Shown here: positions 14,625 through 21,637 of the stretch, one piece after another
How the letters are laid out: every line of letters starts with the position of its first letter
Position numbering within the stretch: position 1 is the stretch's first letter
Assembly (NCBI RefSeq): GCF_029490015.1
Contig: NZ_CP120468.1
Location: 2,356,001 to 2,420,000, forward strand
Direction: 5' to 3'
DNA length: 64,000 nucleotides
Source: Halobaculum limi
GTDB taxonomy: Archaea; Halobacteriota; Halobacteria; Halobacteriales; Haloferacaceae
Program-made: the position numbers and the translations under genes
Notes under the pieces: model-generated
The model's database searches: none
What the model saw: the letters and a program-made list of their open reading frames with translations, nothing else
What the model was told of the DNA's origin: nothing

Positions 14625-14702
14625 TGAGTGACCATCGCAGTAGCATCACGCCCGGTCTCGACGTGAGGGGGGAGAGACCTCGTGTCGGCAGGGCAGACAC
14701 CC

Positions 14703-15113
14703 ATGAACCTGCACACGATACTTACGGAGGAACGAGCCGTCTCGCCAGTCATCGGCGTCATCCTGATGGTCGCGATCACCGTGATCCTCGCGGCGGTCGT
14801 CGGGTCGTTCGTCCTCGGAATCGGGGGCGACGTACAGCCGAGTTCGCCGAACGCGAACTTCCAGTTCTCGTACGCGACGAACGGGGCGAACTACGACGTG
14901 ACGGCGACACACGGCGGCGGCGACACGATTCCCGCAACGGAACCTGTCGAACTGTCGACCGCCAACGGGACGGCGACGTTCAACGGGTCGGTGTCGGCCG
15001 GGTCGGCGGCGACTGTCGCCGACGTGCCTGCCGGGTCGACGGTCCGTGTCGTCTGGCGATCCGAGAACGGCGAAGACTCCGCGGTGTTGGCCGACGACGA
15101 GGTACCCGCGTAA
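14703..15113 (+). CDS. Type IV pilin/archaellin-like N-terminal domain protein
   Basis: A 136-residue protein. The N-terminus MNLHTILTEERAVSPVIGVI carries a class III signal peptide, with likely cleavage by the prepilin peptidase (PibD) after Arg, leaving AVSPVIG. A single hydrophobic helix (about residues 12-38) follows, and then a Gly/Thr/Ser-rich beta-type exported domain. It is expected to be membrane anchored or assembled into a pilus-like filament. GTG at 14682, in frame seven codons upstream, is an alternative start, but ATG 14703 gives the canonical short leader. No pilus assembly ATPase or membrane platform gene is nearby, so it is an orphan pilin. Confidence 0.9.
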   Translation: MNLHTILTEERAVSPVIGVILMVAITVILAAVVGSFVLGIGGDVQPSSPNANFQFSYATNGANYDVTATHGGGDTIPATEPVELSTANGTATFNGSVSAGSAATVADVPAGSTVRVVWRSENGEDSAVLADDEVPA

Positions 15114-15247: not shown

Positions 15248-16897
15248 ATGTCTGAAGAAGACACTAGCAGACGGCGGTTCCTGCAAGCGGCGGGTTCGGC
15301 GACCGCAGCGGTCGCACTCGCTGGCTGTGCGGGCGGTGGCGGTGAGTCCGAGACCACGGAGGGTGGGATGGAGACGACCGAGGGTGGGATGGAGACCACC
15401 GAGGGCGATATGGAGACGACCGAACGCCCCGAGCCGACGACGCGCGAGGGCTACCTCCAGCGTGCCAACCGGCACTGCAACGAGCAGGCGCCGTGGGTGT
15501 TCCTCCACCGGCAGTTCTCCGTGTACGGCCAGTCCAGCAACATCGAGTGGCAGCCGCGCACCGACGAGCGCGTAGCCGCCTACGGGATCGAGCCAGCGAC
15601 GGACGCCGGCGACGACGTCGTGATGACGCAGTCGCAGATGGACTCCGGGCTCGACCCGCAGGACCACCGCGAGACGCCGACGGACAACATCGTCCTGCAG
15701 GCGTACGAAGGACTGCTCGAGCGTGACGCAGATGGTGCAATCGTCGAGACGCTGGCGACCGACTACCAGCGCCTCGACGAGACGACGGTGCAGTTCACCG
15801 TCCGCGACAACGTCTCGTTCCACTCGGGCGACTCGCTCACTCCCGAAGACGTTGCCTTCTCGATCAATCGGATCGTGCAGGAGGACGTCGGCATCGCCTC
15901 CCCGCAGGTCGACCAACTCATCGGCGTCGACGGCGCGGAGGTCGCGTCCACCGACGACCGCACGGTGAACGTCAACCTCTCGGGGCTCAACCCCATCGTG
16001 TTCGCGTCGTTCGCGACGTACTGCGACGTGATGAACAAGTCGTGGGTCGAGAGCAACGACAACGCCTACGTCAACCAGAACATGGAGGGCACCGGCCCGT
16101 TCGTGCTCACGAACTACGAGCAGGGCGTCGAAGTCGCGTTCGAACGCAACGACGACTACTGGCAGGAGCCAGCGGCGATTTCGACGTTCACGATCAACTC
16201 CGCGAGCGAGCCGTCGACCCGTGTGAATCGCCTCATCGCAGGCGAGTCCGACATCGCGGTGAACGTACCCCCACAGGAAGTGTCGCGCGTCGAGAACAAC
16301 GACGGCACCTCCATCACGGCAGTGCCGTCCACGCGCGTCATCTTCAACGCGATGCGCTACGACGTCGAGCCGTTCGACTCGCCGCAGTTCCGTCAGGCCG
16401 TCAACTACGCGGTCGACCTGGACGCGATCATCGAGAACGTCCTCCAGACGTTCGGGAGTGCCACGGGTCAACCGACTCTGGAAGGCTTCTTCGGCTACAA
16501 CGAGGACATCGATCCGTACCCACGTGATCTGGACCGCGCCGAGCAACTCGTCGAGGAGTCCGGCTACGCAGGCGCCGAGATCGAACTCGTGACGCCGATC
16601 GGCCGCTACCTGAAGGACGTCGAAATCGCACAGGCGGTCGCCTCACAGGTCAACGAACTGCCGAACGTCTCGGCAACGGCCCGCCAGATCGAGTTCTCGA
16701 CGCTCGTCAGTCAGGTCACCACGGGCAGCATCGAGGACAAGCCGCACTGGTACCTGCTGGGGTGGGGTAACGCGACCTTCGACGCGATCCAGACGATTCA
16801 GCCGCTCCTCGCGAGCGACGGGTCGCTCTCGTCGTACAAGAACGAGGAACTGGACCGCCTGCTCGACGAAGCGCAGAGCCTGCCGAGCGAATCATAG
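15248..16897 (+). CDS. ABC transporter solute-binding lipoprotein, SBP_bac_5 family, apparently permuted
   Basis: A 549-residue Tat lipoprotein: the twin-arginine leader TSRRRFLQAAG and lipobox LAGC (Cys27) are followed by a Thr/Glu/Gly repeat linker (residues 35-59). Residues about 63-115 (REGYLQRANRHCNEQAPWVF, then FLHRQFSVYG and EWQPRTDERV) look like the segment that closes the C-terminus of dipeptide/oligopeptide-binding proteins. The usual N-terminal start of the fold (TQSQMDSGLDPQDHRETPTD) comes after it, near residue 127. The protein then ends early at LDRLLDEAQSLPSES, exactly where that segment would normally follow. It delivers substrate to the permeases 16904-18966. The substrate may be a peptide, a sugar or nickel-like ligand; it is not determinable here. 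Confidence 0.9.
   Translation: MSEEDTSRRRFLQAAGSATAAVALAGCAGGGGESETTEGGMETTEGGMETTEGDMETTERPEPTTREGYLQRANRHCNEQAPWVFLHRQFSVYGQSSNIEWQPRTDERVAAYGIEPATDAGDDVVMTQSQMDSGLDPQDHRETPTDNIVLQAYEGLLERDADGAIVETLATDYQRLDETTVQFTVRDNVSFHSGDSLTPEDVAFSINRIVQEDVGIASPQVDQLIGVDGAEVASTDDRTVNVNLSGLNPIVFASFATYCDVMNKSWVESNDNAYVNQNMEGTGPFVLTNYEQGVEVAFERNDDYWQEPAAISTFTINSASEPSTRVNRLIAGESDIAVNVPPQEVSRVENNDGTSITAVPSTRVIFNAMRYDVEPFDSPQFRQAVNYAVDLDAIIENVLQTFGSATGQPTLEGFFGYNEDIDPYPRDLDRAEQLVEESGYAGAEIELVTPIGRYLKDVEIAQAVASQVNELPNVSATARQIEFSTLVSQVTTGSIEDKPHWYLLGWGNATFDAIQTIQPLLASDGSLSSYKNEELDRLLDEAQSLPSES
15350..15424 (+). repeat. 21-nt tandem repeat in the lipoprotein linker
   Basis: The unit encodes ETTEGGM and is present three times (third copy ETTEGDM), followed by a partial fourth unit. 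It lies within the linker between the lipobox and the folded domain of the binding protein. Its likely role is a flexible spacer, and the copy number could vary by slippage. Confidence 0.85.
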
Positions 16898-16903
16898 GCC
16901 GTT

Positions 16904-17896
16904 ATGGGCTACGGTCGTTTTCTTCTGAAGCGCGGCGTGCAAGGGGTCGGTGTTGTCTGGGGAGTCGTGACTGTCGTGTTCATCCTGCGATTCATCACGC
17001 CAGGATCACCGATCGACACGGTTGCCCCGCTCGACGCCAGCCAAGAGACACGCCAACGGATCGCCGAGGAACTGGGACTCAACCAGCCGCTGTGGGTCCA
17101 GTACCTCGATTACCTCTGGGAGTTGCTCAACGGGAACATGGGCTATTCGTACATCTCGAGTATCCCCGCGTCCGTGCAGGTGTTCCAGAAACTCCCGGCC
17201 ACGCTGGAGTTGGCGGTCGCAGCCAGCATCGTCGCCGTCGCGTTATCGATCCCCCTGGGGGTCATCTCCGCGACGCGACGCCACCAGCCAGCGGACTACG
17301 GAGCGACGACGTTCTCGCTGTTGGGCATCTCGACGCCGAACTTCTGGCTTGGCATCATGCTCGTACTCGTGTTCGCCGTCGAGTTCAACGTCTTCCCGAC
17401 GAGCGGTCGGGCGTACGGCTTCATGCAGACGCTCGCGGCGATTACCGGGCCGGAGCCGTTCTTCGAGGTGGCGACCGCGTTCGTCGCCTCGCTGGTCCTC
17501 CCGGCGATCACGTTGGGAACGTACTTCACGGCGCTCATCACGCGTCTCGTTCGCTCGGGGATGCTCGACGAACTGTCGCAGGGGTACGTTCGCGCGACGC
17601 GCGCGAAGGGGTTACCCGAGACGCTCGTGCGCTACAAACACGTGCTTCGAAACACGCTCGTTCCCGTCGTGACCGTCCTCGGTCTGCAACTGGGGACGCT
17701 CATCGGTGGTGCGGTCATCACTGAAGCCGTCTTCGCGTGGCCGGGGCTTGGCTCCGAGATCATTCGCGCGATCAACGCGCGTGACTGGCCCATCTTGCAG
17801 GGGAGTCTGATCGTCATCGGCACCGGGTTCGTCCTGTTGAACATCGCAGTCGACGCACTGTACGCGTACCTCGACCCGCGGGTGGTGGCAGAATGA
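16904..17896 (+). CDS. dppB: ABC transporter permease, DppB/OppB family
   Basis: A 330-residue inner membrane permease with the family start (GRFLLKRGVQGVGVVWGVVT) and the large loop GLNQPLWVQYLDYLWELLNG. Six hydrophobic segments follow. The EAA motif contacting the ATPases is YVRATRAKGLPETLVRYKHVLRN (positions about 227-249; quoted here only as landmarks YVRATRAKGL and VLRN). The start lies 7 nt after the binding-protein stop and its end overlaps the next permease by ATGA, so the genes are translationally coupled. The symbol follows the family; substrate specificity is inferred only. Confidence 0.9.
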   Translation: MGYGRFLLKRGVQGVGVVWGVVTVVFILRFITPGSPIDTVAPLDASQETRQRIAEELGLNQPLWVQYLDYLWELLNGNMGYSYISSIPASVQVFQKLPATLELAVAASIVAVALSIPLGVISATRRHQPADYGATTFSLLGISTPNFWLGIMLVLVFAVEFNVFPTSGRAYGFMQTLAAITGPEPFFEVATAFVASLVLPAITLGTYFTALITRLVRSGMLDELSQGYVRATRAKGLPETLVRYKHVLRNTLVPVVTVLGLQLGTLIGGAVITEAVFAWPGLGSEIIRAINARDWPILQGSLIVIGTGFVLLNIAVDALYAYLDPRVVAE

Positions 17897-18966
17897 AGAT
17901 CGGACCGCTCACCATCTCGCCGCGCACGCTCCGCAACCTGCGCCGTGAGTTCCAGTCGTCTGGACTCGCGAAGATCGGTGTGGTGCTCGTCGTGTTGGTG
18001 ATGCTCGTCGCGGTGTTCGCACCGATGATCGCGCCGCACAACCCGCGGACGCAGAACCTCGACGAGGCGCAGTTGCCGCCGCTCGGGTTCACCGACACAG
18101 AAGAACAGACGCGAACCGAGATGGTCAACGGGAGCGTCCAGACCGTGACCGAGAACGTCACCGTCAACGCGACCGCCAAGTATCCGCTCGGGACGAACTC
18201 GCTCGGACAGGACATGCTCTCGCGGGCCATCTACGGCGCGCGAACCTCGCTGTTGGTCGGGTTCTTCGGAACCGTCCTCGCGGCGTTGCTGGGCGTCACC
18301 GTCGGCCTGACCGCGGGGTACTACCGCGGTCGTGTCGACGACGCGCTGATGCGTATCGCCGACGTGTCGCTAGCGTTCCCATCGCTCGTCCTGGCCATCG
18401 CGCTCATCGGACTGTTCAGCCGGTTCCAGGCGGACGTGGCCTACGCGGTCACCGATCCGCTCGTGACCAGCGGCATCGCGGGCGCGTTCCGCGAGGCCGT
18501 CGGCTTGCCGACGCCGATGCCCGAGTCGTTCGTGTTGCCGACGGTCGTTATCTTGGTCGTCGGCTTCGTCAACTGGGTGTGGTTCGCCCGTATCGCACGC
18601 GGCGAGGCACTCTCCATCCGCGAGGAGGAGTACGTGAAGGCCGCCCGCGCACTGGGTGGGAGCGACGTTCGGATCGTATTCCGGCACGTCCTTCCGAACG
18701 CCATCACGCCTATCCTCGTACTCGCGACCATCCAGGTCGCGGCGATCATCCTGTTGGAATCGGCGCTGTCGTTCCTGGGCTTCTCCGGGACGACGCTCTC
18801 GTGGGGCTTCGACATTGCACAAGGACGTGGCTACCTCTCGTCGTCGTGGTGGATCGCAACCGTGCCCGGACTCGCTATCGTGCTGTCCGTCATCGGCATC
18901 AATCTCGTGGGCGACTGGCTCCGCGACGCACTCGACCCCGGTATCGAAGGGGAGGGGGGTCTGTAG
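17893..18966 (+). CDS. dppC: ABC transporter permease, DppC/OppC family
   Basis: A 357-residue permease. The N-terminal TM (IGVVLVVLVMLVAVFAPMIA) is followed by an extended hydrophilic loop (about residues 50-110) typical of DppC, with HPLG-type landmark KYPLGTNSLGQDMLSR. Five further TM segments and the EAA loop (EEEYVKAARALGGSDVRI, about 238-255) complete it. It starts by ATGA overlap with dppB and ends directly against the dppD start codon (TAG-ATG), so the operon has essentially no gaps. It forms the translocation pore together with the preceding permease. Confidence 0.9.
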   Translation: MKIGPLTISPRTLRNLRREFQSSGLAKIGVVLVVLVMLVAVFAPMIAPHNPRTQNLDEAQLPPLGFTDTEEQTRTEMVNGSVQTVTENVTVNATAKYPLGTNSLGQDMLSRAIYGARTSLLVGFFGTVLAALLGVTVGLTAGYYRGRVDDALMRIADVSLAFPSLVLAIALIGLFSRFQADVAYAVTDPLVTSGIAGAFREAVGLPTPMPESFVLPTVVILVVGFVNWVWFARIARGEALSIREEEYVKAARALGGSDVRIVFRHVLPNAITPILVLATIQVAAIILLESALSFLGFSGTTLSWGFDIAQGRGYLSSSWWIATVPGLAIVLSVIGINLVGDWLRDALDPGIEGEGGL

Positions 18967-20211
18967 ATGAGCGATTCATCCACGGCCCACGACGCCGCAG
19001 GCGTTCCGGAGGGCCACGCAGACGACGTGCTTCGCGTCCGTGACCTGTCGACCCGCTTTTTCACCGAAGAGGGGCAGATCAACGCCGTCGAGTCCGTAGA
19101 CTTCAACGTACGCGACGGCGAGATTTTCGGCATCGTCGGCGAGTCCGGGTCGGGCAAGTCCGTGACCGCCCTCTCGCTCATCGACCTGGTCGACTCCCCC
19201 GGTCGGATCACGAGCGGCGAGGTGTGGTACCGTGACGCCGACCTCGCGGAGGAGTTCCGCGACAGCACGCCCGAGGCGGTCGACGGCGAGTTCGTCGACA
19301 CGCGCCAACTTCCGAAGGGCGTTCGTCGCTCGCTTCGCGGCCCGGCGTTCTCGATGGTGTTCCAGGACCCGATGTCCTCGTTGAACCCGTCGGTCACCGT
19401 CGGCGAACAGATCGCCGAGGCCGTCGAGGTCCAGCGTCGTGCGCGGTCGAACCCGCGCCGGACGCGGTCTCGAACCCAGGGGTACGGAATGGGTCGGCTC
19501 ATCGCCGACACGCTGCTCCCGAATCGAGGCTACACCTCAGAGAAGAGCGAGGCACGCGCCATCGAACTGCTCGAACAGGTCGGCATCCCCGACCCCGCAG
19601 AGCGGGCAGACGAGTACCCCCACCAGTTCTCGGGCGGGATGCTCCAGCGTGCGATGATCGCGCAGGCGCTGGCTGGCGAACCGGACATCCTCGTCGCCGA
19701 CGAACCGACGACGGCACTCGACGTGACGATCCAAGCGCAGATCCTCAATCTGCTCCGCGACCTGCAAGAAGAGCAGGACACCTCCGTCGTGATGATCACC
19801 CACGACCTCGGCGTGATCGCTCGGATGTGCAACCGCGTCGGCGTGATGTACGCCGGAGAGATAGTCGAGCGCGGGACGCTATCGGATGTGTTCGAGACGC
19901 CCGTCCATCCGTACACGGAGGGCCTGCTCGGGTCGATTCCAGACTTGGACGACCCGGCCCCGCGCCTTCAGCCGATAGAGGGGAACGTCCCGTCGCTGTT
20001 GGACGACGAGATGGGCGACCGCTGTTACTTCGCCGACCGCTGTCCGAAAGCGATGACAGACTGCCTCCAACCGATTCCCGAATACGACGCGGAACCGGGC
20101 TCCGACGACCACGCGACTCGCTGCGTGCTTGCACAGCGAGAGTTCAGCGAGGCCGACGCGTTGCCAGCCGACCACTTCGACCGGAACGCAGAGGTGCGCA
20201 GCGATGACTGA
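18967..20211 (+). CDS. dppD: ABC transporter ATP-binding protein, DppD/OppD family
   Basis: A 414-residue ATPase. Walker A is GESGSGKS (about residues 59-66), a Q-loop is in SMVFQDPMSSLNP, the signature is FSGGMLQR (about 221-228) and Walker B ILVADEPTTALD follows. A stretch of about 45 residues (RRARSNPRRTRSRTQ and onward) is inserted between the Q-loop and signature. The C-terminal oligopeptide-transporter domain (oligo_HPY) contains the cysteines DRCYFADRCP and TRCV. These proteins energise solute import at the cytoplasmic face. It follows dppC with no spacer and overlaps the next ATPase by 8 nt. Confidence 0.92.
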   Translation: MSDSSTAHDAAGVPEGHADDVLRVRDLSTRFFTEEGQINAVESVDFNVRDGEIFGIVGESGSGKSVTALSLIDLVDSPGRITSGEVWYRDADLAEEFRDSTPEAVDGEFVDTRQLPKGVRRSLRGPAFSMVFQDPMSSLNPSVTVGEQIAEAVEVQRRARSNPRRTRSRTQGYGMGRLIADTLLPNRGYTSEKSEARAIELLEQVGIPDPAERADEYPHQFSGGMLQRAMIAQALAGEPDILVADEPTTALDVTIQAQILNLLRDLQEEQDTSVVMITHDLGVIARMCNRVGVMYAGEIVERGTLSDVFETPVHPYTEGLLGSIPDLDDPAPRLQPIEGNVPSLLDDEMGDRCYFADRCPKAMTDCLQPIPEYDAEPGSDDHATRCVLAQREFSEADALPADHFDRNAEVRSDD

Positions 20212-21637
20212 AGAGCCACTGCTGAAGGTCCGCGGCCTCAAGAAGTACTACTTCGAGGACGACACGCTGTTCGACCGTATCCTCGGCAACGAGCCAACGA
20301 GCGTGAAAGCCGTCGACGGCGTCGACCTCGACGTCCACAAAGGCGAGACACTCGGCGTCGTCGGCGAGTCCGGGTGTGGGAAATCTACGACCGGCGAGAC
20401 GCTCCTCCGCCTCCGTGAGGCGACCGAGGGGACCGTGGAGTTCGACGGCGAGAACGTCTTGGAGATGTCCAGCGACGAACTGACGCGCTTCCGCAAGCGC
20501 GCGGGCATCGTCTTCCAGGACCCGTTCTCCAGTCTCGATCCGCGGATGACCGTCGGCGACATCGTCAGCGAGGGGCTGAAGATCCACAACCTGCCAGAGG
20601 AGTCGCCCGACGACCGCTCGAAGCGGGAGTGGCGGCGCGACCGCGCGAAGGAACTGCTCGAACGGGTCGGTCTCTCGGGCGATCAGATCGATCGCTACCC
20701 ACACGAGTTCTCTGGTGGACAGCGCCAGCGCGTCGGTATCGCGCGAGCGCTCGCACTCGATCCGGAGTTCATCGTCCTCGACGAACCCGTGTCGGCGCTG
20801 GACGTGTCCGTGCAGGCGCAGATCCTGAACCTGCTCGAAGACCTGCAGGAGGAATTCGGGCTGACGTACCTGTTCATCGCGCACGACCTCTCGGTCGTGC
20901 GGCACATCTGCGACCGCGTCGCCGTGATGTACCTCGGCGAGGTGGTCGAGACGGGCGCGACCGACGACATCTTCGAATCGCCCAAACACCCCTACACGGA
21001 GGCGTTGCTGGATTCGGTTCCACGCGCGTCCGTCGAAGAGCAGGGGCGTCGCGTCGACGCTCTCTCCGGGGACGTTCCGTCGCCGCGGAACCCGCCGTCG
21101 GGGTGTCACTTCCGAACGCGGTGTCCGAAGGTGATCCAACCGGTGACCGTCGATATCCCGCAAGAGCAGTACCGCGGGATCATGGACCTCCGTGACCGCC
21201 TCGAACGCGAGGGGTTCTCCGCGGAGTCCGTGTGGGAGACGCTCCGCTCGGAGTCCGACGACCCGCAGTCGTTCGAACGCGACCGGGTGGCGTTCAAGGA
21301 GGCGCTTCGCGGTGAGTTCGACCTCCACGGCCTCTCGGGTGCGACGATGGACACGGTCGAGGACGCCCTCGAGATTCTCGCGAACGGCCGCGAAGACGAG
21401 GCGGCCCAACGCCTCCGCGACGGGTTCGCCTCGCCCTGTGAAGAGGAAGACCCCGTGCTCACGCCGGGAGCACACGCCGTCGCGTGTCACCTGTACGCCG
21501 ACGAGGACTACGACACCACCGTCGACCCCGACTCGGTTTCGAACCCGATGAGTGGGATGGCACCCGACGTGGCCGCGACCAACGCAGACGACGGCGACGA
21601 CGATGCCGACGCCGCGTCGAGCGCCGGCGGCGACTAG
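20204..21637 (+). CDS. dppF: ABC transporter ATP-binding protein, DppF/OppF family
   Basis: A 477-residue ATPase starting MTEEPLLKVRGLKKYYF; the start overlaps the dppD stop by 8 nt. Walker A is GESGCGKST, the Q-loop VFQDPFSSLDPR, the signature FSGGQRQR and Walker B FIVLDEPVSALD. In the C-terminal oligo_HPY region a roughly 110-residue, charged helical stretch is inserted between CHFRTRCPKV and the later ACHLY segment, which explains the large size (typical DppF is about 330 residues). It completes the five-gene importer with 15248-20211. A haloarchaeal feature of this family is likely, but I cannot check how widespread the insertion is. Confidence 0.92.
   Translation: MTEEPLLKVRGLKKYYFEDDTLFDRILGNEPTSVKAVDGVDLDVHKGETLGVVGESGCGKSTTGETLLRLREATEGTVEFDGENVLEMSSDELTRFRKRAGIVFQDPFSSLDPRMTVGDIVSEGLKIHNLPEESPDDRSKREWRRDRAKELLERVGLSGDQIDRYPHEFSGGQRQRVGIARALALDPEFIVLDEPVSALDVSVQAQILNLLEDLQEEFGLTYLFIAHDLSVVRHICDRVAVMYLGEVVETGATDDIFESPKHPYTEALLDSVPRASVEEQGRRVDALSGDVPSPRNPPSGCHFRTRCPKVIQPVTVDIPQEQYRGIMDLRDRLEREGFSAESVWETLRSESDDPQSFERDRVAFKEALRGEFDLHGLSGATMDTVEDALEILANGREDEAAQRLRDGFASPCEEEDPVLTPGAHAVACHLYADEDYDTTVDPDSVSNPMSGMAPDVAATNADDGDDDADAASSAGGD

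Follow-up and report, generated by a model that had tools for sequence, protein, structure and literature searches.

Does the first gene of a Dpp/Opp-type operon in Halobaculum limi encode a substrate-binding protein whose chain has been reordered? The preliminary description of this locus had pointed out that residues ~63–115 of the predicted lipoprotein lie before the start of the binding-protein fold, while the C-terminus lacks the usual final stretch, and it offered two alternatives, a permuted gene or an assembly error that had moved ~160 bp. The window referred to below is the entire 64,000-nucleotide stretch that was analysed, and positions are counted from its first letter.

The gene, its operon and its locus

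The open reading frame at 15248-16897 (+) is intact, with an ATG at 15248, a stop codon at 16895-16897 and a product of 549 residues. This product is a Tat lipoprotein of the SBP_bac_5 family (PF00496), with the Tat motif RRRFLQ and the lipobox LAGC, in which the cysteine is Cys27. The PF00496 match covers only residues 165–525 (230.6 bits vs. a cut-off of 32.4; E = 4e-68). Directly after the binding-protein gene come the B, C, D and F genes of a Dpp/Opp-type importer, encoding two permeases and two ATPases, and these four were found intact, as had been described. All NCBIfam equivalog matches were far below their cut-offs, and it is from the operon that we predict the binding protein to be a component of a Dpp/Opp importer. 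The features of the region are as follows.

15248..15328 (+), Tat signal peptide and lipobox (residues 1–27, LAGC, Cys27), from the translation; the motifs are also present in permuted relatives
15329..15433 (+), low-complexity tether linker rich in T, E and G (residues 28–62), under weak constraint (dN/dS in Halobaculum orthologues 0.64)
15434..15595 (+), relocated C-terminal segment of an SBP_bac_5 protein (residues 63–116), matching unpermuted C-termini (dN/dS 0.26)
15596..15613 (+), new junction joining the old C-terminus to the old N-terminus (residues 117–122, ATDAGD), short and variable, between the two profile pieces
15614..16882 (+), core of the SBP_bac_5 protein with its internal order unchanged (residues 123–545), with PF00496 at 165–525 and the unpermuted-orthologue profile matched at 3–424
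16883..16897 (+), new C-terminus (last four residues and stop), just past the end of the LDRLLDEAQSL helix; permuted relatives end at or shortly after the same loop
16904..17896 (+), DppB/OppB-type permease of the same operon, from PF00528, an NCBIfam Opp2B match below cut-off, and synteny
17893..18966 (+), DppC/OppC-type permease, from NCBIfam matches below cut-off and synteny
18967..20211 (+), DppD/OppD-type ATPase, from NCBIfam matches below cut-off and synteny
20204..21637 (+), DppF/OppF-type ATPase, from NCBIfam matches below cut-off and synteny

When loci were compared, the gene order SBP-dppB-dppC-dppD-dppF was found with both permuted and unpermuted binding proteins. The malic enzyme gene maeB lies upstream in permuted genomes (Halobaculum, Halolamina, Halobonum) and also in unpermuted ones (Haloferax, Halogranum, Haladaptatus and others). 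These shared maeB-SBP-dppBCDF surroundings place the permuted gene at the locus that an unpermuted orthologue occupies elsewhere. The binding-protein tree is mirrored by one built from subunits B, C and D. Between maeB and the operon, the window also holds a 143-residue ORF with a GTG start (14682-15113) and a type IV pilin-like N-terminal segment; relatives of this ORF adjoin the binding-protein gene in only some Halobaculum and Halobonum loci.

The C-terminal segment lies in front of the core

The canonical order of segments is usual in SBP_bac_5 proteins, though the Pfam model does not require it. In the H. limi protein, the C-terminal segment is N-terminal of the core. Aligned on their own by blastp, residues 59–120 matched the last ~50 residues in all 20 of the 20 unpermuted relatives tested (44–65% identity, E = 1e-11 to 1e-20), and the front residues are thus the missing C-terminal piece that they had been taken for. 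The observation that the chain lacks its usual final stretch also held up, as the protein ends where the C-terminal segment of ~55 residues would start.

For a formal test, 42 unpermuted orthologues were combined into a profile of 481 positions. The H. limi protein in its natural order matched it in two pieces that were out of order, profile positions 420–479 aligning with residues 56–115 and positions 3–424 with residues 123–545. Together, the pieces cover positions 3–479 of 481, with an overlap of ~5 positions (420–424) in a loop. Reordered in silico, the protein matched as one piece with 763 bits, compared with 688.6 bits when the segment was deleted and 689–691 bits when it was shuffled. 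The match of the segment to the unpermuted C-terminus is far beyond chance.

Comparisons with known structures and library models gave a similar picture. With phmmer against the Protein Data Bank (PDB), residues 69–107 aligned to positions 441–479 of 490 on an AccA-type chain, in an order that disagrees with the main match, and a profile built from the permuted segments matched AccA-type chains (490–499 residues) at 432–482 with E-values of 0.03–0.19, both matches being weak when taken alone. All PDB sequence matches of the permuted protein belong to SBP family 5. NCBIfam full-length models reach nearly to the profile end on an unpermuted orthologue and stop short on the permuted protein; the GsiB model, for example, was matched to position 481 of 512 by the former and only to 427 by the latter. 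Every complete protein that was classified has exactly one copy of the segment, on either the N-side or the C-side of the core. Judged from its sequence, the permutation is real: this is an SBP_bac_5 lipoprotein with its last ~55 residues moved to the front.

Distribution among haloarchaea

A sample of 170 genomes of the GTDB family contained 107 with a close relative, of which 31, from six genera, had the permuted match over the full length, and the rest matched only from residue ~115 onward. Elsewhere in the order, permuted forms were found in other families (coded f4, f5, f7, f10 and f15). Near relatives therefore share the order, in complete chromosomes, drafts and metagenome-assembled genomes (MAGs) from many projects. 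The same order across independent genomes excludes an assembly or annotation error, for which we see practically no chance. Between the two alternatives raised at the outset, it is the permuted gene that stood.

In a class-wide sample, a profile of the junction found 43 permuted genomes out of 391, each with an E-value of 8.5e-40 or better over the full junction, separated by a clean gap from the next best match (5.8e-26), which covers the segment only. A phylum sample searched at E = 1e-28 contained no permuted form beyond the order, and plasmid records gave none either, their two matches covering only the segment. Named records with the permuted form belong to Halobaculum, Halolamina, Halobonum, Halobium, Halorarius, part of Halorubrum, Halomarina, Halosimplex and Salinarchaeum; those with the unpermuted form belong to Haloferax, Halogranum, Haladaptatus, Halorussus, Haloquadratum, Haloprofundus and others. 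The closest named relatives of the window are from Halobaculum, and the twin-arginine motif and lipobox are also present in the permuted relatives. The permuted arrangement is old, conserved and at the orthologous locus.

Several individual genomes show further variation. An S/G/N-rich extra tail of ~20–30 residues is found on the new C-terminus of some permuted proteins (L125, L128 and L167, from two Halomarina and one MAG). Halobium salinum (L115, L169) has a permuted protein and an unpermuted relative in one genome, with maeB upstream of the unpermuted copy and dppBCDF not detected beside it. A frameshift or in-frame stop appears to disrupt the gene in Halolamina pelagica CDK2 (L114/L028), in genome G324 (L076) and in the MAG QS_9_68_17 (L162); it is intact in other Halolamina genomes.

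Conservation and predicted structure of the moved segment

Among ten orthologues from the genus Halobaculum, dN/dS (Nei-Gojobori, ratio of means) was lowest in the core (0.19), intermediate in the moved segment (0.26) and highest in the linker (0.64). The relocated stretch is subject to purifying selection. Its per-column variability correlates between permuted and unpermuted proteins with a Spearman coefficient of 0.82 over 53 columns, and the residues R..L..AN, APW.FL, QYS.YG and W.AR.DE are kept in both. That the same columns and residues are conserved in both forms indicates the same structural role.

An AlphaFold model of the permuted protein, made to see if the segment completes domain I as the preliminary description had proposed and generated from a shallow alignment of 26 rows, was of low confidence (pTM 0.44, mean pLDDT 60.5). 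Its best PDB match was 5u4o (TMq 0.47, rmsd 7.6), and the fold matches, coming from this low-confidence model, were to SBP family 5. An unpermuted Halogranum protein with a similarly shallow alignment (21 rows), used as the control, gave a pTM of 0.73, a TMq of 0.76 and an rmsd of 3.4. In the low-confidence model the moved segment has a helix at 66–80 and a strand at 86–96, resembling those at the C-terminus of the control, with a pLDDT below 50 in the strand. That the segment would complete the usual fold rests on sequence conservation, and the low-confidence model did not confirm it. The low AlphaFold confidence in this part of the chain could also be taken to mean that the front segment plays no part in completing the binding-protein fold and is instead a vestigial or regulatory pro-segment. 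Purifying selection on the segment, conserved columns that are the same as in unpermuted proteins, and the lack of a second segment copy in the chain make this very improbable.

The number of origins

The permuted group tested in the trees was defined by architecture before the trees were seen. In a core tree of 74 rows, 31 permuted proteins were in one group, whose monophyly is compatible with the data (AU p = 0.525), and four others formed a distant second group, clade 2. The core data reject a single clade for all permuted proteins (p = 6.4e-6, and 4.6e-110 with added rows). In the segment tree, the clade-2 segments grouped with those of the unpermuted proteins L092 and L095 (100/99), and the main-clade segments were monophyletic (96/89) inside this subfamily. 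The closest relative of the clade-2 core is an unpermuted protein with 58% identity, the identity to main-clade permuted proteins being 42–47%, and the clade-2 segment bears the LHQQ[YF]SIYG...DEDI signature of its unpermuted relatives. These results indicate at least two probable permutations at the same loop, and reversions or recombination may explain the remaining tree placements.

The unpermuted proteins L192 and L203 nest within clade 2 with support, but a single clade of clade-2 permuted proteins is only marginally disfavoured (p = 0.053), and these permuted proteins have one linker motif in common. We do not claim three or more origins, since the nested unpermuted rows (p = 0.525 and 0.053) and the common clade-2 linker can be accommodated by two origins together with reversion, recombination or errors in the tree. 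The unpermuted proteins L046, L047, L051, L152, L158 and L160 (Haloprofundus, Halegenticoccus) have cores and transporter subunits that fall among or beside the main permuted clade; they are possibly its closest unpermuted sister or a reversion.

Alternatively, there might have been one ancient permutation, with later reversions or with gene conversion that replaced the shared core by that of unpermuted paralogues. In both permuted clades an ELP-like motif precedes the moved segment and the last helix is often followed by a P, a few unpermuted rows do nest among permuted ones, and with the segment alone (53 columns) a single origin was not rejected (p = 0.21 and 0.08), all of which would agree with one event. 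Against this, the core trees reject one clade, and both the core and the segment signature of clade 2 side with unpermuted proteins, so that we regard a single event as unlikely.

Origin and consequences of the rearrangement

We assign a probability of about 0.9 to the reading that the product of this gene is a genuine and working lipoprotein, circularly permuted, that binds substrate for a peptide/nickel-type (Dpp/Opp) ABC importer, its function being predicted. The ~55 residues that moved form a helix and a long strand and end in the terminal W..R.DE stretch; they now lie between the linker of the lipid anchor and the old mature N-terminus. The old termini are joined by ~6 variable residues, and the chain ends at the loop where the segment formerly began. 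The segment would pack in its former place, the binding protein would keep the usual two-lobed Cluster C fold, and it would capture substrate and deliver it to DppBCDF. The main consequence would be that the membrane tether joins the protein through another surface loop, the one preceding the last helix.

The likeliest route appears to be that the mature region was duplicated in frame and that the first core and the second C-terminal segment were then lost, because both new ends seem to retain loop residues, as seen in the profile overlap at 420–424. Duplication with partial deletion had already been suggested in the preliminary description and is plausible on the present comparisons; none of the complete proteins classified was an intermediate carrying the segment twice. 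The same topology could arise by recombination between two genes, with the front segment fused from a paralogous binding-protein gene and the protein's own C-terminal segment lost later. Haloarchaea have several SBP_bac_5 paralogues, and Halobium salinum has both forms. However, the segment tree follows the core, both in the main clade and in clade 2, where the segments fall beside those of unpermuted proteins related to their own cores. A close paralogue could still have been the donor, but we consider such a fusion improbable overall. As for why permutation should have occurred more than once, we offer only tentatively that it was convergent at the same loop, favoured because the lipid tether then sits at a site on the protein that suits its work with the membrane transporter better, and that re-siting the anchor may be adaptive in archaeal cell-surface binding proteins.

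Comparison with known systems

The Halobaculum protein resembles DppA, GsiB (YliB), NikA and AccA, all of the SBP_bac_5 family, in its core sequence, its DppBCDF-type operon and the presence of all conserved segments. It differs from them in having the C-terminal ~55 residues in front and its termini in the loop before the last helix. The unpermuted orthologues at the same locus, such as those of Halogranum rubrum and Haloferax spp., are ~60–66% identical in the core and have the maeB and dppBCDF flanks in many genomes, while their segment is at the C-terminus, in canonical order.

A natural circular permutation in a tethered ABC binding protein has been described in TpMglB-2 (Tp0684) of Treponema pallidum, a lipid-tethered glucose-binding lipoprotein termed 'Type Ic / Cluster Bc' and conserved in its clade (PMC4990184). 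Three N-terminal strands have been moved to the C-terminus, and both ligand binding and a conformational change were demonstrated for the permuted protein (PMC4990184). Its permuted part has only 13% identity, so that the homology of that part is uncertain, and the authors raised anchoring as a possible reason for the permutation (PMC4990184). In contrast to this sugar-binding protein of Type I / Cluster B, the Halobaculum protein belongs to the PF00496 family and falls outside Cluster B. Our search of the literature on permutation in SBP_bac_5, in oligopeptide-binding proteins or in haloarchaea, with most subscription papers outside its scope, returned nothing relevant. TpMglB-2 of Cluster B is the sole natural precedent found among ABC-transporter binding proteins, and the SBP_bac_5 case, itself well supported, appears to be new.

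Most natural circular permutations are old, and many have been deduced only from structure. Here, permuted and unpermuted orthologues occupy the same locus with ~60% core identity, and sequence gives access to the ancestral order, the direction of change, the selection acting on the segment and the number of events. The example carries a warning for annotation that depends on segment order, which misses part of permuted proteins, as the library models stop short of the moved segment. Both forms could be compared in one laboratory host, and such a pair makes it testable whether topology and the position of the anchor matter in a surface-tethered ABC binding protein, providing a clean case for studying how proteins survive rewiring.
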